The notes under the pieces were generated by a model. That model was not told the origin of the DNA and did not search any database. It was given only the letters and a program-made list of their open reading frames with translations. A stretch of DNA of 64,000 bases from Tannerellaceae bacterium (lineage in GTDB: Bacteria > Bacteroidota > Bacteroidia > Bacteroidales > Tannerellaceae): the NCBI GenBank assembly GCA_031288175.1, contig JAITRW010000029.1, positions 1-64,000 on the forward strand, given 5' to 3'. Every line of letters starts with the position of its first letter. Positions within the stretch are counted from its first letter, which is position 1. Below, piece after piece: positions 1-49,193 of the stretch. Both the position numbers and the translations under genes were made by a program.

Positions 1-3000
1 GCTGCCTTCGCCGAATGTACCGCCCTCGAAAAAATAAACCTCAACGAACTCCCCAACCTCGAAACAATTGGCTCCAGCGCCTTTTTTCGGACGAACTTGA
101 AACACATAAAGATTGACGCTCCCAATCTCAAATACATAGGTGATGGAGCTTTCGCGAAGTCGCAATTGACCTCCTTCTCCTTACGTGCCGCTCCCGATGC
201 AGTGATAGACCAAGGTGCCTTCAGCGAGGCAACCTCTCTCGACAGTATCTGCCTCAAATCCAAGTTCAAGATATCAGGTAAAGCCTTCGAGGGCTGTCCG
301 AATATCCAATCCCTCATCTTCCTCAAGACCCCCGAAATCTATAAGTACAATGTGGTGAATACAGAGGATCCCAAACTCAGTAACCTGTTTCCCTCCTTCC
401 CCCCCTCCGCCCTCCGTGTCTACCTCCCCCACAACGACCTCCACGGCCCTAACCGCCTCTCCAAACTCGACACTTGGGGGCACCCCCTCCTCTCCACCTG
501 GAAGATCCGCCGTACCTCCTCCTCCCAAGAAATCAACGTCGCTGCCGGTGAAGAAGTTCCCCTGGAGTACCAGCTCTACCGCTACGGCTGGCCTCTCACC
601 GCCGACGACCTCGCCAATGCCGACGACGAAGCCACCGCCGCCAACACCTTCGGCGCCCTCCGCTTCCACCACCTCCACACCAGCGCCAACCTTGAGCATG
701 CCCTCATCCTCTCCCAATCCATCGAACACCCCGACCTCGGTTTCGGCAAAGACGCCAAAGGCCTCCGTACCCTCGCCGCCCGTCACGACCGCCCCGACAC
801 CGACCGCGACACCTTCACCCTCACCCTTGACCCCCTCACCTCCCTTGGCGGCGACCAGGGCGTCTACCCCGACACCTTTATCTATACGGTCTCCTCCTCC
901 TCCACTCCCGCCGACGTCTTCGACGTCTTCGAAGACCGCACCCCCAACGCCCAAGGTACCCCCGGCATCCGCTTCGTCGTCATCTCCGACACCGAAGTCC
1001 ATCTCACCCGCCGTATGGTCACCGGCCTGCCCAATTCCGCCCTTGATTACCGTACTCTCACCGACATGGTCATTCCCGCCACCGTCCTATACCAAGACGG
1101 TGCTACCGCAAAGTCCTATACCGTCACCGGCATCGACGATTCCGACTTCGAAGACTGTACCGCCCTCACCCGCATCAAGCTCCTAAATAAAAACGGTATC
1201 ACCGGCGTCAATGAAACCACCTTCCCCGCCCCCGCCGATGACCGGCAAACCAAAACCGTCTTCGTCAACGCAGAACTCATAAACGGTGGCAAGACTGTCC
1301 CCTGGTCTACCGGCTGGGCCGTCAAGTCCGCCTACCAGGTCATCACCCCGGGAGCCAACCCCGACACCTCTTTCACCTTCCGCTACGTTATTGAGGAGAA
1401 GATAGAGATACCCTACCAACTCTGGGATAACTATAAGGATATCGAAATAGCTACCTCGGGACTACTCCCGACGGTCATCCACGAGCCCGCGTTGCTCAAC
1501 GCCTTCACCCCCATCCCCGGCAACCCCCTCACCCTGATGTCCTTGAATCCCCAAGAATTGCACACTACGCTCACCGTCAATCTCCAGCCTCCCGGTTCCG
1601 CCCTCACTCCGATCCCCCTCAGCTGCCGGATAAATGCCCTCGTACCCGTTACCGACACCGTCATCACGTCCCTCGCCGCCGACCGCGACCCACTGCTCAC
1701 CAAAGAATCCGTCATCGTGACGGCGACAGGTCACGAGGAAGTCGACGGAGTGCCCCTCACCCGCCTCTTTACCCCCGACAGCCTCTCCTGGGTCTACGAT
1801 GATGCCCATTTCATCGCCTCCATCGTCGTAGAAAACGGCGTGCGCCAGGGCCATAAGTTGCTCCTTACCCCAAAAAAATACACCCCCGACGACCGTCAAT
1901 TCCCCATCTCCATCGCATACACGGAAACTGTCACCTACTCCCTGACCCTCAAAGCCCCCGTCATTGACATGAAAATAGCCGTTATAGAGAACGAGGGATA
2001 CATCCCTAAAATGGAAGGTGTTCACTATAAACTGTCCGAAGTCCGCCCCGTAAAGCTGCAAGCCACCGTCTACTTCGACAACGATCTCCTCAGCCCTGCG
2101 CTCTACCCCAAAATAGAAGGCCTCACCCCCGACGACACTGACTGGCTCACCTGGCAATCCGCACAAGCCTCCTCCCCCGGTTCTTCCTCCTCGGCAATCA
2201 CCTTCCAGTCCTCGTCAGGTTTCGAAACCATTCTCCTTCCCCACCGTAAAGGTACTGCTCTGGTGAGCTATAGCTTGCCGACACAATGGTCGTCATCCCC
2301 CAGCCCCTCCCTTTCCTTCTCGGTTCCTTATAGTGTCTTCTTCCCCGGCGAGGCAGTCGAAGGTACCCTCCTCCTCTTCCGCGGCACCGACCAGGTAAAT
2401 GATGGAGCCAGCTTATCCCTCGCCTCCGGACAATCCCTTAACTTGCACGCGCAGTTGATGGTAGACAACAGTTACTCGCTGTTAGTGGAAGGCTTCCATT
2501 GGAACTCCACCGGGCCCCCTTATCCTGACAGAGGAAGCCAACGGTTCCATCACCGTGAGAGGTAATCACATACCCGATGAAACTCTTACCGGCCATATCG
2601 AAGTCTCTGCAAAAGGAATCACCACCATCCCACTGTCCACTGCCACCTTCTCCATCTTCCCTTCCTTCCCCGAACTTGAAGAAACCGAACCGGTTATCAC
2701 CGTGGAGGTAAGCGGCAGCGCTAAGTCAGTGCAGGTAGGAGACACCGTATATCTGAAAGTGGTCACGCTCTCCGATGCCTTCCCTGTGGAAGCTACCTAT
2801 ACGTGGATAAGCAGCCATCCTGATACGCTGAAGATAGTACCTTACCCTGGTCGTACAGACACGCTGTCCGTCATGGGTCTGTGCGGATTGTCCGATCTGC
2901 CCGATTCAGTATCTATCATAGCCATCTCATCCGCCGGGGGCCGTGACACCTTCCGCATCCACGTTATCCCTCCTACCTTGTCCATCACCCCCGCCTTAGC

Positions 3001-3772
3001 CGAGGGCCAAACGGAGACGGTGCTCCCAGCCGCCGGTCAGTCCACATTTTCCTTCACTGCCACCACTACGGAGAGCTCCCCGTCACTGGCCCGTCCCCTG
3101 AGCGCCACCCTGAGCGCCACGGCAAACTGGTCATCGGATAACCCCTCTGCCGTGTACATAAACCGTACGGGGAAGATCTTTTCCCGCGACACCGGCCGCG
3201 CCGTCATCACCCTCTTCCTCGTCGGCGCCACCGTCACACGCACCGTCACTGTGCCGTTGCCCACGTTAAGTCTCTCTCTGACAGCGGGTAAAGACACCCT
3301 CTCCATCGAAGCTCCCTTGCAACTCTCCACCCGTATCCTGCTGAACGGTAGCGAGCTGAACCCTGAGACCCATCCTGACGCCGTCCTGTCGGACACCTTT
3401 GCCATTGTCTGGCAATCCCTCGACACCGCGCAAGGATCCCCCGTCACCGTCACGGCCACCGGCCTGGTCAATGTCTTATCGGAGCGTCTGCGTGAAGTGG
3501 TAGATTCCGTACAGATAGCCGCACGCGTCCAAGCCTTCGGCCTCTCCGCCCCCGACACCCTGCGGCTCTATCTCCCCGCCTTACCTTATCCCCCTGCAAG
3601 CCCCATCCCTTTCCCTCCGGAAAAGGATCCCCACGAAACAGAAGTCTATGAAATCTACACCATAGACGGCCGCCGCATCCTCCGCAGTGCAATACCCCCT
3701 TCTCCCCTCCGGCTTTACATCCTCCGCACCTCCCACGGCACCTTCAAACTCCTCCTCCCCCAAAGAGAGTAA
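1..3772 (+). pseudogene. BspA-like leucine-rich-repeat surface protein, 5' truncated and frameshifted
   Basis: The reading frame is open from base 1, so the N-terminus lies outside the window. The first ~110 visible residues are BspA/LRR_5-type repeats (AF..CTALEKI, IGDGAFAKS), with one more LRR stub near bases 1120-1230. A long, poorly recognisable Ig-like region follows. Frame 1 stops at 2565, but frame 2 continues the same kind of sequence without a break from about 2515 to 3772. Removing one C from the C5 run at 2515-2519 joins the two frames into a sensible protein (..WNSTGPLILTEEANG..). The C-terminus (IYTIDGRRIL...TFKLLLPQ, bases ~3650-3765) resembles a T9SS type A sorting domain. The family are secreted cell-surface adhesins. 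The coding strand is very C-rich at third positions. Whether the frameshift is real, phase-variable or an assembly error cannot be decided here. Confidence 0.75.
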
Positions 3773-3829
3773 TCCCCTCTACTGTAACAATCCGCACAGC
3801 ACAGAAAGGTCGGAGGGGGAGGAGGGATT

Positions 3830-4588
3830 TTACAGTTCGAGGCCGAGACGAAGGGCTTGTTGGAGGGTATCCAATTCGCGATGGCGCATTTCCAGAGTAA
3901 CAAGGATGTCCTTTTCACGAGAGGAGGTATGTAGTATCTTCCGGATACTGCCGTTTCGTATAACCAGACGCTGGTCGGCCATGAGGGTCAGCATGGGGTC
4001 GTGAGTGGCGATGAGGACGATTTTTTCCTTGCTGATCAGGAGAGAAAGTGCGCTACGTCGATCAATCCCTGCGTTTTCTATCTCGTCAATAAGGACAATG
4101 GGAGATTCGCTCAGAAAAGCAACGTCGGCGATCATCAGAGAGCGGGACTGCCCTCCTGAAAGGGCAGTCAAGGGCATGTCTGCCGTCAAGGGTTCACCGG
4201 CAAGTTGATTGGCTTGCTGTATAACGGAGGCTACGAGCGTGCCTATTGAGCGGCTAAGGCGCTCTGCCGCCCGACTTTCTGCATGGAGGCGTAGAAAGTC
4301 TCCGACGGAGGCATCCATGACGAAGTTCATGTTTTGGGAAAGTTGTGCGACCAGCTTACCTGCGGTGAGGAAACGTTCTTCCGAAGCGGGTGTGAAGCCG
4401 TCTACCAAAACGTAGCGTCCGGTGGGAGTATCGCCTTGCGCGAGCCATTCGATGTCGGCCAAAAGGCGGCTTTTACCCGATCCGGTAGGCCCTACGAGGG
4501 CCGTCACTGTGCCGACAGCCAGGTCGAGGGAGATGTTTTCGGGCATGCCTTCCTTATCCTTGCCTCCGATGATCGTGATATATTTCAT
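3830..4588 (-). CDS. Solitary ABC-type ATPase, substrate unknown
   Basis: A 252-aa ATP-binding cassette protein. From the ATG at 4588 (MKYITIIGG) it has a Walker A GPTGSGKS (33-40), a Q-loop region around residue 83, an LSGGQ signature (143-147), a Walker B IVLIDE (164-169) and an H-loop His196. All ATPase motifs are intact. A longer in-frame start exists at 4714, but it lies deep inside the rarA coding region and its extra 42 residues do not look like ABC sequence. The chosen start overlaps the rarA 3' end by 35 bp, so the two are probably co-transcribed. No permease or binding protein is adjacent, so it could serve a remote transporter or have a non-transport role. The specific subfamily was not recognised. 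Confidence 0.8.
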   Translation of the reverse strand: MKYITIIGGKDKEGMPENISLDLAVGTVTALVGPTGSGKSRLLADIEWLAQGDTPTGRYVLVDGFTPASEERFLTAGKLVAQLSQNMNFVMDASVGDFLRLHAESRAAERLSRSIGTLVASVIQQANQLAGEPLTADMPLTALSGGQSRSLMIADVAFLSESPIVLIDEIENAGIDRRSALSLLISKEKIVLIATHDPMLTLMADQRLVIRNGSIRKILHTSSREKDILVTLEMRHRELDTLQQALRLGLEL

Positions 4589-5816
4589 AAAGTTTATGTT
4601 CGGCAGGGTTGTCTTGCGGCGTCCAGAGGCGGGTGTCTTTAAGTTGAGGAGGAAAATAGTCCTGGGAGACGTAGTTTCCTGCATAGTCATGTGCATACTT
4701 GTAACCATCTGCATAACCTAAGTCGGACATGAGTTTGGTAGGGGCATTACGGAGGTGCAGAGGTACGGGGAGATTACCCGTTTGATCCACGAGGTCAAGC
4801 CCGTTGCCAATAGCCAGGTAAGCGGAGTTACTTTTGGGGCTGAGTGCCAAATAAATGGTAGTCTCGGCAAGAATGATACGTCCCTCAGGCCATCCTATCT
4901 TGCGAAGCGCATCGAAACAGGCATTGGCAAGCAGAAGGGCGTTAGGGTTAGCGAGGCCAATGTCTTCGGCAGCCAGGATAAGAAGTCGCCGAGCGATGAA
5001 TTCGGGGTCTTCCCCACCGGCAACCATACGGGCTAACCAATAGATAGCGGCATCGGGATCACTACCCCTGACAGACTTGATGAAGGCGGAGATGATGTCG
5101 TAGTGGAGTTCACCGCCTTTGTCGTAAGCGGCGGGATTGGCCTGAAGGCGTTCAACGACTTTATCGTTCGTGATCTCTACTTCCATCGTGTCGCCTTCAG
5201 CATTGATCACCAATTCAAGAATGTTGAGGAGCTTACGTCCATCGCCACCGGAGAAACGCAAGAGGGCATCGGTTTGCGTCAAAGTCACGTTACGCTGGGA
5301 CAAAAAGACGTCTTTTTCCAAGGCTCGATGAAGTAAGGTAAGCAGTTCCTCCTTGCCGAGTGGTTTCAGGATATAGAGCTGGCAACGCGAAAGGAGAGGG
5401 GGGATGACTTCAAAAGAGGGATTTTCTGTGGTAGCACCGAAAAGGGTGACGGTACCTTTCTCTACGGCGCCGAGCAACGAATCTTGCTGGGATTTGCTGA
5501 AACGGTGTATCTCATCAATGAAAAGAATCGGAGTTCCTCCGAAGAAATGTCCGCCTTTAGCCCGCTCAATGACCTCACGCACGTCTTTGACACCGGAATT
5601 GACGGCACTTAAGGTATACAAGGGGACATCAAGACGCCGAGCGATAATCCCGGCGAGGGTGGTTTTTCCAACACCGGGCGGTCCCCAGAGAATGAAGGAG
5701 GGTGCTCGTCCACTATCCAAAATTTTACGCAACACACTACCTTCACCGACCAGATGCGCCTGGCCGACGTAATCGTCAAGAGAGACAGGCCTCATCCGTT
5801 CGGCTAAGGGTTCCAT
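4554..5816 (-). CDS. rarA: Replication-associated recombination protein A (RarA/MgsA AAA+ ATPase)
   Basis: A 420-aa clamp-loader-like AAA+ ATPase that acts at stalled replication forks. Visible motifs are Walker A GPPGVGKT (45-52), Walker B ILFIDEIHRF (97-106) and sensor 1 GATTENPSF (127-135), followed by the MgsA C-terminal domain with DPDAAIYWLARM and the conserved region around ANPNALLLA. Length and N-terminus (MEPLAERMRP) are normal for the family. It lies 6 bp downstream of the S37 peptidase stop and overlaps the following ABC ATPase, which suggests a minus-strand transcript 7115 to 3830. Confidence 0.95.
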   Translation of the reverse strand: MEPLAERMRPVSLDDYVGQAHLVGEGSVLRKILDSGRAPSFILWGPPGVGKTTLAGIIARRLDVPLYTLSAVNSGVKDVREVIERAKGGHFFGGTPILFIDEIHRFSKSQQDSLLGAVEKGTVTLFGATTENPSFEVIPPLLSRCQLYILKPLGKEELLTLLHRALEKDVFLSQRNVTLTQTDALLRFSGGDGRKLLNILELVINAEGDTMEVEITNDKVVERLQANPAAYDKGGELHYDIISAFIKSVRGSDPDAAIYWLARMVAGGEDPEFIARRLLILAAEDIGLANPNALLLANACFDALRKIGWPEGRIILAETTIYLALSPKSNSAYLAIGNGLDLVDQTGNLPVPLHLRNAPTKLMSDLGYADGYKYAHDYAGNYVSQDYFPPQLKDTRLWTPQDNPAEHKLYEIYHDHRRQG

Positions 5817-5822
5817 AGAATT

Positions 5823-7115
5823 CTATAGAGAGAGCCAAGTCTGAAAAGAGGCCAGGACTTTCTTTCTGTCTTTGGGGGGAAGCGTCCGGATACGTGTGGA
5901 GTGATCGCCGCGGGGGGCGATAAAGAGGAGACGGTTAGCTTTGGCAGGAAAATCGGGGATTCGGGAGGCGCTCCAAGGATCTACTTCGCCGTATATAAAC
6001 ATGATCTTGGGGTCATTGCATTCGAGGTAACGATAAACTGTATCGTACATGGCAGCCCGATCGAAAGAGAGTGTTTTCCCGATACTGTCAGGGAGCATGA
6101 CGTGTGTGAGATAGTTTTCACAATGGGGGAAAGAGAGACCGTGCAGTCCTTCGGTATCATAGCCGTAATAACCCATTTCGGTAGCGGCCTGGAAGAAAAA
6201 GGGTTCCATGCCTTGACCGGCGGCAAAATAGTCGGCATCGGCAACGTTCATCAAATGGTTGAAGAGTGTTTCGTCGTCCGCACTCTTTGCGGGAATAGAT
6301 TCGGCGTGTTTTCCCCATTGCCAAAAAGCAAAAGGATATTCGAGGACACAGAAGTCGAGTAGTCCGTCCCAAGTGATTCGGAAAACCAGTCCTTTTTGGG
6401 AGGCATAAGCTTTGAGGTGTTCTATCATTGCCGGACGGCGGGCAAGAATTTGGTTCCGAAACTTATGTATACGATTACGCTCCCAACGGGTACCTACTTT
6501 ACGGAGAAAGTCTTCGTGACGCCCGTCTTCCGGGGCACGATTGAGAGGAGCGACGTAGGAGACGGAAAAAACAACGTCTTCGGGGAACCATGTACGGTAG
6601 AGCAAGGCCGTCTGTCCTCCCTTGCTGATGCCTGTACTGATCCAGGAGGCGGGGTAAAGACCGGCAAGGAGAGTACGGACGTGGTGTAGGTCGTTGGCAG
6701 CGTTCTTGGTGGTGAGGTATGTCCAATTGAGGGTATCGGGGCAGGATTTTAGAAAGTAACGGTGTTCGACGACAATGGTATTCGCATCAAGAAGGGTACT
6801 TACTTCATCAGAGTAAGCTTCCTGCAGGGCATAGTTAGCGCCGTACCCTTCGGTGACAATCACCGTGGGACGTTCTGTCCCGACATGCCCTACGATGACT
6901 CGTTGCAGGAAAATACCGACTTGTCGGCCTTCCCAATCTACTTGCTGACGTACCCAAAGGAGATATTTTTCCTTAAAGGTTGTAGATTGAAGAGGCTCTA
7001 CCTTAACGACATCTCCCAAGGCGGCAAGCCGAGATAAAAGGGTCTCCTGTGCGTTGGCAACAAATCCTGTCCATAGAATAATAAGGACAGCCTGAAACAG
7101 TTGTCTTACTTTCAT
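5823..7115 (-). CDS. Secreted S37-family tripeptidyl aminopeptidase
   Basis: A serine peptidase of the S37 (PS-10) family, which includes the Porphyromonas surface tripeptidyl peptidase; these release tripeptides from the N-termini of peptides outside the cytoplasm. The start at 7115 (MKVRQLFQ) gives a clean signal peptide ending near VANA-QE. It is preferred over the upstream 7133 ATG because the -7 box at 7120-7127 lies between the two. The catalytic nucleophile is Ser164 in GISKGG, with likely Asp379 (GEVDPW) and His405 (GDHSTR). The protein is 430 aa and appears complete. It fits an amino-acid-fermenting lifestyle. The ATG follows the -7 box by 4 nt, so the message may be leaderless. Confidence 0.88.
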   Translation of the reverse strand: MKVRQLFQAVLIILWTGFVANAQETLLSRLAALGDVVKVEPLQSTTFKEKYLLWVRQQVDWEGRQVGIFLQRVIVGHVGTERPTVIVTEGYGANYALQEAYSDEVSTLLDANTIVVEHRYFLKSCPDTLNWTYLTTKNAANDLHHVRTLLAGLYPASWISTGISKGGQTALLYRTWFPEDVVFSVSYVAPLNRAPEDGRHEDFLRKVGTRWERNRIHKFRNQILARRPAMIEHLKAYASQKGLVFRITWDGLLDFCVLEYPFAFWQWGKHAESIPAKSADDETLFNHLMNVADADYFAAGQGMEPFFFQAATEMGYYGYDTEGLHGLSFPHCENYLTHVMLPDSIGKTLSFDRAAMYDTVYRYLECNDPKIMFIYGEVDPWSASRIPDFPAKANRLLFIAPRGDHSTRIRTLPPKDRKKVLASFQTWLSL

Positions 7116-7119
7116 GCTA

Positions 7120-7127
7120 CAAAGGTA
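7120..7127 (-). promoter_or_regulatory. -7 box TACCTTTG for the S37 peptidase
   Basis: Matches the Bacteroidota -7 consensus TAnnTTTG on the minus strand. Only 4 nt (TAGC) separate it from the ATG at 7115, so initiation would fall at or next to the start codon. It lies between the S37 gene and the stop of the upstream di-haem gene. Confidence 0.6.
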
Positions 7128-7145
7128 GCACAAAATGAGGTGAAA

Positions 7146-8672
7146 TCAGATGGCTTTGAGGAAGGCAACTATAGCATCGCGGTCGGCTTTAGGCAACTCG
7201 CGGAAAAATTCTTTACTTGTCATAGCTTCTCCTTCATGCCAGAGGATGGCTTCTTCGTAATTACGGGCACGCAGGTCATGCATCTTATCCTCGTGTCCAG
7301 AGATGACATACATCAGACCCCGACCCCAGAGGGGAGTGGTACGACAGATCTGCGCCCGTCCCGGATTTTTCATCCCCAAGTCGTGACGAAGAAGGTCGGT
7401 GTAGGGATAGATACGCTGTTTGGAGAGTTCGGGCATCGGGGTATAATTATCCCGCGTAGTCCATTCGGGACGATGACAGGCAGTACATCCGGCTTCCTTA
7501 CTGTAAAAAAGTTCTTTACCTCGCTGCACAACGGGATTGTCAAGATTCCTCGCCGCGGGAACGGCTAAGGCGCGATGCCATACCATAAAAGCTTTATAGT
7601 CATCCTCCGTAAATTCCACGGGAAGGTCTTTGGACATGAGGTGGGAATAGATCTCTTCCTGTGTCTGTCCCAAGGACTGCTGCACCTCGGGATCGGCGGC
7701 CATCAATTGGGCATATTTATCGGTGATGTAATGGTAGGTACGTTCGGGGCGGGTCACGTTGGTAATATTCCAGATGGCATTGGCGCCGGGGCCATTATCC
7801 AGTGTACCCCGTGTATGGAGGTAGGTGAAGCGGCCGGGGTGCTTGCCGGGGAAAGGATTGCTGGGGTCTTTCTCCTCAATATCAGCACCGATCAACCCTT
7901 GCGCATAGCCTCTGATCTGCTCTATCTCATATTGTTCCCGATAATCTTCATCCGAGATGGCGTCAATGAGGCCGATGCCGTAAATCCCGATGGTTGCTTC
8001 GAGGGCTACCGCATAGTCATCAATATCAAACTCCGATTCATCAAAGATAATGGACTCCTGGTCAATGGTAACTTTGGGATAAATAAGGGAATAGGAAGTA
8101 CCGTCGGCATACTTGTTTCCAAAGTCATCCACATGCTCTAACCATTGTATATGGATACCAGACTCGTTAATAGGAGGTTCATAAGGAGGAACGGCGCGTG
8201 TTTGAGGCATACCAGTGAAATGGGTAGCGAGAGGCATCCCCGGTTCATTGGGTTTGTAGATGACAAGGAGATAGCAGTTCTTACTGTCGCTCGCATCGTA
8301 TTTGTCAACCCGTTGTCCTCTACCGCCATAAGAGGGGTGACAGGCAATGCAGGAGGTACGGACATAGACAGGGCCTAATCCTGAATAACCCATTCCGGTG
8401 TTTTTCGGTACAAATTTTTTTTCAAAGATGCGTTCCCCACGCATGAACTGAGAGTAGTAAGAGGGATTCTCATCAATAAAGGGCATTGGTTGCCGATAAG
8501 CAAAACGGTTGGCCATAAAGACGGTGCCATTCTCTCCACCGGAGAACCATTCGGCATTTTCGGCATTATATTCTTTCCTGTTTACTTCCTTATTTACAGG
8601 GATATCATCGTCGTCACAAGCGATCAAAGCTATAGCCATAATTGCCAATAAGTAAATCTTTCCGTCTCTCAT
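7146..8672 (-). CDS. Di-haem c-type cytochrome lipoprotein (DUF1111, 'thiol oxidoreductase' family)
   Basis: A 508-aa lipoprotein. The signal peptide ends in the lipobox IALIAC, with Cys19 followed by DDDD, an acidic run of the kind that marks surface-exported lipoproteins in Bacteroidota. Two covalent haem sites are visible: CIACH (108-112) and CTACH (396-400). This domain plan is the DUF1111/DHOR family, often annotated as a thiol oxidoreductase and commonly found beside imelysin genes. The actual substrate is not known; a redox role in metal acquisition is an inference from context. The gene follows the imelysin gene but has its own -7 box (8712-8719) beyond a terminator, so it may be both read through and independently transcribed. 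Confidence 0.88.
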   Translation of the reverse strand: MRDGKIYLLAIMAIALIACDDDDIPVNKEVNRKEYNAENAEWFSGGENGTVFMANRFAYRQPMPFIDENPSYYSQFMRGERIFEKKFVPKNTGMGYSGLGPVYVRTSCIACHPSYGGRGQRVDKYDASDSKNCYLLVIYKPNEPGMPLATHFTGMPQTRAVPPYEPPINESGIHIQWLEHVDDFGNKYADGTSYSLIYPKVTIDQESIIFDESEFDIDDYAVALEATIGIYGIGLIDAISDEDYREQYEIEQIRGYAQGLIGADIEEKDPSNPFPGKHPGRFTYLHTRGTLDNGPGANAIWNITNVTRPERTYHYITDKYAQLMAADPEVQQSLGQTQEEIYSHLMSKDLPVEFTEDDYKAFMVWHRALAVPAARNLDNPVVQRGKELFYSKEAGCTACHRPEWTTRDNYTPMPELSKQRIYPYTDLLRHDLGMKNPGRAQICRTTPLWGRGLMYVISGHEDKMHDLRARNYEEAILWHEGEAMTSKEFFRELPKADRDAIVAFLKAI

Positions 8673-47173: not shown

Positions 47174-48418
47174 ATGATAGCACTTGACAATCATCCCTGT
47201 TTCAATGTTTCCGCACGGCATGCCTCTGCACGTATCCACCTCGCTGTAGCTCCCCACTGTAACGTACAATGTAATTTCTGTGACCGGCAATTCGACTGTA
47301 CCAATGAAAGCCGTCCCGGCGTAACTACTTCTCTTCTCCGTCCTGAGGAAGCCTTACATCATCTTGAAGTAGCCGACAACCATATTCCTAACCTTTCCGT
47401 AGTCGGTATCGCAGGGCCTGGCGACCCTTTCGCTAATCCCAATGAAACGATGGAAACCCTTACCCTTGTCCGGAAACATTTCCCCGACAAACTGCTCTGC
47501 GTTTCCACCAACGGCCTGAATATACAAGATTACGTTCCTCAATTGGCCGAACTTAAAGTATCCCACGTGACAGTCACTGTCAATGCCGTGGATCCCTCTA
47601 TCGGCGCCAAGATCTATGAATGGGTACATTTCAACCACAAGACCTATTTCGGTGAAGACGGTGCACGATTGCTTTTTCAACGACAAACCGAAGCCTTACG
47701 TACACTTAAGCGACATGGTATTACGGTGAAAATAAACACCGTCGTCGTTCCCCGCGTCAATGAACATCACGTGGCTGACATCGCCCGCTATACTGCCGAA
47801 CTCGGCGCCGACCTGCAAAACTGTATTCCTCTCATCCCTGTCAACGGCACTCCCTTTGGGCTTCTCTATGAACCTTCTGCCGAAAACATGCGTTCCGTAA
47901 GGGCCAAGACCTCGCTTTTTCTCCCCCAGATGGCACATTGCGCACGTTGTCGTGCAGATGCCGCCGGTCTCCTCTCTGTTCCTGCCCACGATAAAGTGCC
48001 GACCAATACTACCACGCTCCTCCGTTCTGGTGAAACGGCCTATATTCCTGACGGAAAATACGTCGCCATAGCTACCCGTGACGGGAAATACGTGGATGTC
48101 CATCTCGGACAGGCACAATACCTTTGGATTTACAAACTTGAAGACGGGAAAGTTACTTTGGTAGAGCAACGTTCCGTCATCCATTGCCGTGAAAACGATG
48201 ATCGGTGGAATGCCCTTGCCGACACTCTTGCCGATTGTAGTGCGCTTCTCGTTGCAGCTCTCGGGCAAGCTCCCCATAAAGTACTTCATCGGCGAGGACT
48301 TTACATTGAAGCCGTTGAAGGTCCGGTCGATGAACTTGTCGCCTCTCTCTTTACACGCCGTTCTCTCCCTCCCGATTCACTTCGTTTTACCGGCTTTTGT
48401 GCCGACCGTTGTCCTTAA
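47174..48418 (+). CDS. nifB: NifB-like radical SAM protein with C-terminal NifX-like domain
   Basis: 414 aa. It opens HPCFNVSARHASARIHLAVAP and has the radical-SAM cysteines CNVQCNFC (Cys29, 33, 36) followed by the NifB signature CTNESRPGV. Further NifB blocks are VVGIAGPGDPFANP, CVSTNGL and VTVTVNAVDP. A NifX/NifB-CO-binding-like domain occupies the last ~110 residues (KYVAIATRDGKYVDVHLGQAQYLWIY). Authentic NifB makes NifB-co, the precursor of the nitrogenase cofactor. No nifH/D/K/E/N gene is in the window, so the partner is elsewhere or absent. Confidence 0.88.
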   Translation: MIALDNHPCFNVSARHASARIHLAVAPHCNVQCNFCDRQFDCTNESRPGVTTSLLRPEEALHHLEVADNHIPNLSVVGIAGPGDPFANPNETMETLTLVRKHFPDKLLCVSTNGLNIQDYVPQLAELKVSHVTVTVNAVDPSIGAKIYEWVHFNHKTYFGEDGARLLFQRQTEALRTLKRHGITVKINTVVVPRVNEHHVADIARYTAELGADLQNCIPLIPVNGTPFGLLYEPSAENMRSVRAKTSLFLPQMAHCARCRADAAGLLSVPAHDKVPTNTTTLLRSGETAYIPDGKYVAIATRDGKYVDVHLGQAQYLWIYKLEDGKVTLVEQRSVIHCRENDDRWNALADTLADCSALLVAALGQAPHKVLHRRGLYIEAVEGPVDELVASLFTRRSLPPDSLRFTGFCADRCP

Positions 48419-48454: not shown

Positions 48455-49193
48455 ATGGAAAAGAAAACCTATGCAGATTATCTAAAAACAACAGCAAACA
48501 CAACGAACTATGCGAAAATGACGTATAGTTCGGGTAATGTATTGAGACGTTTCTCTCATCATGTCAGGTTTCAGAAATCAATCAGTATGATATCCCTTGT
48601 AAAAGGCATTCGGTTATTAGACTTCGGATGTGGTGATGGAAGGTTTCTTAATATGTTAAATCTTATTAATCACGGGGGGGGGTATTTTAATTGGATTTGA
48701 GCCTTATATGGGTCCTATTCCCTGTAATCCTGCCGATATATTGAGAAATTGGGAAGAGATTGAATGTAGAGGGCCTTTTGATTACATTACTTGTTTTGAA
48801 GTATTAGAGCATCTTGGCGTTGCCAGCCTCTCCGAAGCGTTTCAACGCATGCGGAGTGTACTCACAGATGAAGGTTTAGTGATAGTTTCTGTTCCTATAG
48901 AGAAAGGGTTTCCGTCTGTGGTAAAAAATATCAGTCGTCGATTTAGCCGTAGGGGAAACAGGAAGATTTATAACATAAAGAATATTTTATCCTCTTTGTT
49001 CGGAAAGCCACTTCCTCTGTTCCGTCAAGGCGAGCATCTCGGCCATTTGGGTTTTTATTATACGGAGTTGGAATCTGTCCTTATAAAACACTTCGACATT
49101 GTAGAGAAAAGTTTTTCCCCGTTCTCGTACTTTGGTTCCAGCCTCAATTCCCAAGTCTTTTATAAGTTAAAAAAGAAGTCTATCCGAAAATAA
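48455..49193 (+). pseudogene. SAM-dependent methyltransferase split by a G9 tract
   Basis: Two adjacent ORFs (48455-48700 and 48708-49193) make one class I methyltransferase. The first half carries the SAM motif I LLDFGCGDGRFLNML; the second carries FDYITCFEVLEHLG (motif region II). At the nine-G run 48674-48682 the frame ends in NWI-stop; with eight Gs it would read through ..NHGGGILIGFEPYMGPIP, a natural motif. The whole would be about 245 aa, Methyltransf_23-like, substrate unknown. Loss by slippage in a homopolymer could be reversible. It follows nifB by 36 nt on the same strand. Confidence 0.8.
48674..48682 (+). repeat. G9 homopolymer inside the methyltransferase gene
   Basis: Nine consecutive G at the exact point where the reading frame shifts. 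It is the longest G run I noticed, in a region otherwise A/T-rich. Confidence 0.95.

Follow-up and report, generated by a model that had tools for sequence, protein, structure and literature searches.

A mar-linked NifB is the sole radical SAM NifB detected in a Tannerellaceae draft genome that encodes both a nitrogenase and a Mar-like enzyme

NifB is understood to join two [Fe4S4] clusters and a carbide derived from SAM into the [Fe8S9C] cluster termed NifB-co. Eight Bacteroidales genomes with nifHDKENB have been described, seven of them with the genes in that order; in all eight, a ferredoxin gene follows nifB (PMC4356463). Methylthio-alkane reductases (Mar) are defined by the reductive cleavage of C-S bonds in methylthio-alkanes. 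In the marBHDK system of Rhodospirillum rubrum, MarB is a NifB-like radical SAM protein and the assumed maker of the [Fe8S9C] cluster of the reductase (PMC12552129); its product is called unclear in another account, and its resemblance to NifB lies solely around the radical SAM motif (PMC11423573). Several NifB copies, nifB1-nifB4, are known from Paenibacillus, together with NifX-like proteins that are closer to the NifB tail than to NifX, and there is precedent for separate NifB copies serving different types of nitrogenase (PMC8287671). In Klebsiella, FeMo-co can be made with no more of NifB than its radical SAM domain (PMC5715403).

Here, we analyzed a window of 64,000 nucleotides (contig JAITRW010000029.1, hereafter C11) from a draft genome of 1.6 Mb in 45 contigs that is 77% complete; relatives of its genes place the organism in Bacteroidales. 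The gene at 47174-48418 is open throughout from an ATG start and encodes a protein of 414 aa. This protein scores 382 bits against the curated nifB equivalog profile TIGR01290 of NCBIfam (cut-off 343.65), contains the Pfam radical SAM domain PF04055 at residues 26-206, and has NifB chains (6y1x, 7bi7, 7jma and 7jmb; 226-247 bits) as its closest solved structures. All six fingerprint motifs used to tell true NifB from look-alikes (PMC5715403) are present, and in order (6/6). The features of the gene are as follows.

47174..48418, + strand: NifB of the mar-linked lineage, 414 aa, the sole radical SAM NifB detected in the genome
47186..47977, + strand: radical SAM (NifB catalytic) domain, residues 5-268, the best stretch against TIGR01290
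47192..47200, + strand: HPC motif, residues 7-9, by motif match; Cys9 is the likely counterpart of a K1-cluster ligand
47258..47281, + strand: Cx3Cx2C motif (CNVQCNFC), residues 29-36, predicted to bind the SAM cluster, by motif match and alignment
47306..47317, + strand: ExRP motif (ESRP), residues 45-48, by motif match
47411..47422, + strand: AGPG motif, residues 80-83, by motif match
47570..47584, + strand: TxTxN motif (TVTVN), residues 133-137, by motif match
47939..47968, + strand: Cx2CRxDAxG motif (CARCRADAAG), residues 256-265, putative K2-cluster ligands, by motif match; both Cys are invariant in the alignment
48080..48349, + strand: C-terminal NifX-like domain, residues 303-392, Pfam PF02579 (NifX/NafY-type)

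Ligand residues were mapped by motif onto MaNifB, in which the residues that bind the SAM and K1 clusters have been described along with the CxxC of K2 (PMC7145814). Cys9, His22, Cys29/33/36, Cys42, Cys109, Cys256 and Cys259 are invariant across the compared mar-linked and nif-linked Bacteroidales NifB, and the same ligands except Cys42, where the alignment has another residue, are invariant in a more distant NifB set as well; Cys9 is conserved in all compared NifB having that position (77/77). In place of the third K2 cysteine of MaNifB (Cys264), the window protein has a Thr 10 residues before the CxxC, and the 6y1x and 7bi7 chains are also without a Cys at that spacing. His310 of the NifX-like domain is shared by all compared mar-linked (9/9) and nif-linked (34/34) NifB and is probably equivalent to His35, the cluster-binding residue of NifX (PMC13128457).

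Synonymous sites were saturated, so that divergence was assessed by codon position and not by dN/dS. Within the radical SAM domain, 22%, 13% and 66% of codons differ from those of the closest relative at positions 1, 2 and 3, respectively, and divergence biased in this way to third positions indicates that the gene is under purifying selection. This contradicts the suggestion, made from the sequence alone, that the gene is a relic. We give almost no credence to a non-functional gene: its solitary position, the adjacent split methyltransferase and its longer end branch in the NifB tree (0.50 vs 0.29 in the sister) would fit decay, but the full-length open frame, the complete set of motifs and the third-position bias speak against it. 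As judged by the agreement of profile, motifs, structural relatives and tree, the gene is a genuine, intact NifB that adds a new member to a known family; the sequence-only reading had rightly preferred this to a generic radical SAM enzyme.

The phylogeny, one of the checks proposed at the outset, places the window protein within the branch of Bacteroidales NifB; its clade there has 100/100 support and comprises ten proteins, none of which is nif-linked. Inspection of gene neighbors in related genomes, likewise proposed, revealed that the majority of its clade mates adjoin marH/marD. Among mar loci gathered from several phyla by a MarD scan, the order marH-NifB-marD-marK occurs in Bacteroidales such as L061, L064 and L066, often with an additional NifX-like gene and an O-acetylhomoserine sulfhydrylase gene. 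In a tree with more family members, the mar-linked NifB form a 99/97 clade, some members of which lie beside a second marDK pair nearer to R. rubrum Mar. The window NifB is 52-62% identical to mar-locus NifB and about 44-45% identical to nif-linked NifB; with the NifB of Bacteroidales nifHDKENB clusters it shares the two-domain architecture, motifs and cluster ligands, but it falls in another clade and its gene is unlinked, whereas theirs usually follows nifN (or nifK). From tree position and identity, the window NifB belongs to the mar-linked and not to the nif-linked lineage. R. rubrum MarB is comparable to mar-linked NifB as a NifB-like protein encoded with the methylthio-alkane reductase, a likeness by description for which orthology is not claimed. 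In contrast to the arrangement in marBHDK, the window gene is not beside its mar partners, with NifB on C11, marDK on C19 and marH on C42. An unlinked mar-type NifB is also present in G013 (Bacteroidales bacterium Barb4), which in addition has a full nif-linked NifB. In G433, a NifB ORF of 631 aa (L170:859-2754) has a longer N-terminus than the others and may reflect a start-codon artefact or a fusion.

The D and K subunits encoded on C19 have R. rubrum MarD (297 bits) and MarK (368 bits) as their best solved matches (9fmg/9d9u), and an O-acetylhomoserine sulfhydrylase gene lies alongside marDK. The NifH-like protein of C42 scores 500 bits against MarH, compared to 270 for the top nitrogenase NifH. 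These C19 and C42 proteins resemble MarHDK (9fmg, 9d9u) in the [Fe8S9C] ligands, the Arg-His hallmark and the P-cluster cysteines; specifically, the MarD of this genome keeps the ligands Cys270 and His429, the hallmark Arg428 and three P-cluster Cys (residue roles from PMC12552129). Unlike R. rubrum MarD, to which it is placed in a sister clade of the D-subunit tree, it has Gly and Ile in place of the active-site residues Cys73 and His194. The genome thus encodes an enzyme that should need [Fe8S9C], with a substrate made uncertain by these two replacements near the active site. The early proposal that the window NifB makes a cluster for another protein is probably right, in line with its place in the mar-linked clade.

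Near marH on C42 lie rnfB-, rnfC- and rnfD-like genes (L005:9082-14910), which could supply low-potential electrons. Small proteins at L226:11562-11969 (C42) and at L042:10937-11407, the latter within the anf-type cluster of G002, look alike by eye and are possibly HEPN-type. Clostridia mar loci, including L075, L076, L092 and L114, encode a second D subunit that is without Arg428-His429 and has the P-cluster Cys and Cys270; these second subunits form a separate nitrogenase-like clade.

No nif or mar genes were found near NifB in the window, and the observation of the sequence-only reading that the gene lacks nif neighbors holds locally on the contig, but not genome-wide. The search for nifHDKEN that it had recommended located all five genes on contig C35, which carries nifH, two nifI (glnB-like; I1, I2), nifD, nifK, nifE, nifN, a short NifX-like gene and a ferredoxin-like gene. 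NifH, NifD and NifE exceed their NCBIfam cut-offs; NifK and NifN fall under theirs, yet have the NifK/NifN families as their best matches, and NifD scores 628 bits against Clostridium pasteurianum NifD. A linked full-length nifB is absent from this cluster, which has the NifX-like tail only. A complete nif cluster elsewhere had been named as the finding that would make the window gene ordinary; the cluster is there, but without a NifB radical SAM domain. Own-genome gene content was taken from searches of the contigs, for NifB with the window protein and with TIGR01290, and neither search revealed a second NifB with a radical SAM domain in the 77%-complete assembly. Tetranucleotide composition is alike in the four contigs (C11, C35, C19 and C42; r 0.84-0.88), which argues against mis-binning; the possibility that C35, C19 or C42 had been mis-binned was considered and dropped, as the composition check gave no sign of it.

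The short NifX-like gene on C35 encodes a 136-aa PF02579 protein and occupies the nifN-ferredoxin slot that is filled by nifB in other Bacteroidales. It begins with an ATG 4 nt past the nifN stop and its frame is open to its own stop. The protein aligns to the NifB tail region only, with 51% identity to the tail of the nif-linked NifB of G013 and 31% to the tail of the window NifB, and gave no match to solved structures. It retains the His aligned with His310 of the window NifB, which by homology may be the counterpart of the NifB-co ligand His35 of NifX (PMC13128457). In a tree of NifX-type domains, it lies within the nif-type NifB tails (99/91), separate from stand-alone NifX-like proteins. 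The simplest reading of these data is that the protein is a remnant of a nif-type NifB after loss of the radical SAM domain in place, a loss read from one assembly, the single genome of its genus in the set compared. At the nifN junction, only short, chance-like repeats were found.

Its NifX-type domain and its place after nifEN, as for nifX in Azotobacter (PMC13128457), would likewise suit an ordinary NifX in a lineage whose nif cluster never had a linked nifB. The position of the protein among NifB tails, apart from all stand-alone NifX-like proteins compared, makes this highly improbable. We also consider it very unlikely that the organism has an intact nif-type nifB and that the apparent deletion after nifN arose through faulty assembly or binning, as might be suspected for a single fragmented draft. 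The junction is clean, the tail protein is strongly diverged from the tails of relatives (~50% identity), and no nif-type radical SAM piece was found elsewhere in the draft. In an order-level sample, 24 of 25 other genomes with a strong nifE encode a NifB that includes the radical SAM domain. The exception, G362, was rejected as a second nif genome without NifB, given that its nif contig stops within ~200 bases past nifN and another short contig bears a NifB-tail piece.

All seven relatives examined that have both nif and mar (G013, G425, G426, G430, G432, G433 and G499) possess both NifB types, and the mar-only relatives G427, G428 and G429 have one NifB each, which is mar-linked. In this genome, both enzyme systems are encoded, yet only the mar-linked NifB was seen; a sole mar-linked NifB combined with a nif-linked NifB reduced to its tail was seen in none of the other genomes surveyed. 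The data show directly which genes are present, that the radical SAM domain of the nif-linked copy is missing from this assembly, to which clade the window NifB belongs and that the cluster ligands are conserved; from this we infer service of the window NifB to both enzymes and a carrier role for the tail protein. In the proposed scheme, the window NifB is a functional member of a Bacteroidales lineage that normally shares an operon with a nitrogenase-like enzyme, one of the methylthio-alkane reductase (Mar) family. The mar operon is here scattered over three contigs, and the nif cluster's own NifB has lost its radical SAM domain. The window NifB would then most likely supply the Mar-like enzyme and, via NifEN, the Mo-nitrogenase, and the NifX-like protein left beside nifEN may ferry clusters to NifEN.

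We consider it probable that the Mar-like enzyme and the nitrogenase both receive NifB-co made by the mar-linked NifB, because NifB copies serve different nitrogenases and the radical SAM domain alone suffices in Klebsiella; the initial proposal that the gene serves remote nif genes is likewise probably right, with nifHDKEN present in the genome without a full nifB. Our confidence in sharing is not higher chiefly due to the incompleteness of the draft, from which a nif-type NifB could be missing as unassembled sequence. On that account, the window NifB would serve the Mar-like enzyme only, and a relocated nif-type NifB would reside in the unassembled part of the genome. The retention of two types in the other nif and mar genomes agrees with such an arrangement, as does the variable position of nifB in relatives, which is beside nifK, not nifN, in G489 and G499 and away from nifEN in G508 and G514. 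Nevertheless, the slot next to nifN holds a derivative of the nif-type NifB tail, pointing to loss in place and not relocation, and we regard a relocated copy as unlikely. The more elaborate version of the sharing proposal, in which the mar-linked NifB displaced that of the nitrogenase and makes [Fe8S9C] for both enzymes while the nif-type NifB was cut to a free NifX-like carrier delivering the foreign-made cluster to NifEN, is put forward tentatively, with slightly less than even confidence.

Paenibacillus offers a parallel in its multiple NifB copies, some scattered on the genome, and in its NifB-tail-like NifX proteins. There, however, a full nif-linked nifB1 is retained and the scattered nifB3/nifB4 fail to complement, whereas here the nif-linked copy is reduced. 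A mar-linked NifB that is apparently the sole server of an intact nitrogenase cluster would, if true, amount to a natural complementation experiment and would predict that the NifB-co made by mar-linked NifB is the same and interchangeable. It would also show the cluster factory and the NifX-like tail, the two parts that make up NifB, separating in evolution. For screens based on the presence or absence of nifHDKENB, there is a risk that a mar-linked NifB is counted as belonging to nitrogenase, or vice versa.

Within the window, the locus was further compared to that of the solitary NifB of G013. Synteny is loose, with an acyl-CoA synthetase nearby in a differing relative orientation, and was given no weight as evidence. 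An Rfam scan of the window returned two tRNAs and nothing more. The methyltransferase neighbor described earlier as one gene is present at 48455-49193 (+), but is broken into two frames, one at 48455-48700 and the other at 48708-49193, and may be either a frameshift pseudogene or a sequencing error. Positions 1-8000 of the window have a G+C content of 0.547, compared to ~0.46 in the remainder, and contain a large surface-protein-like ORF.
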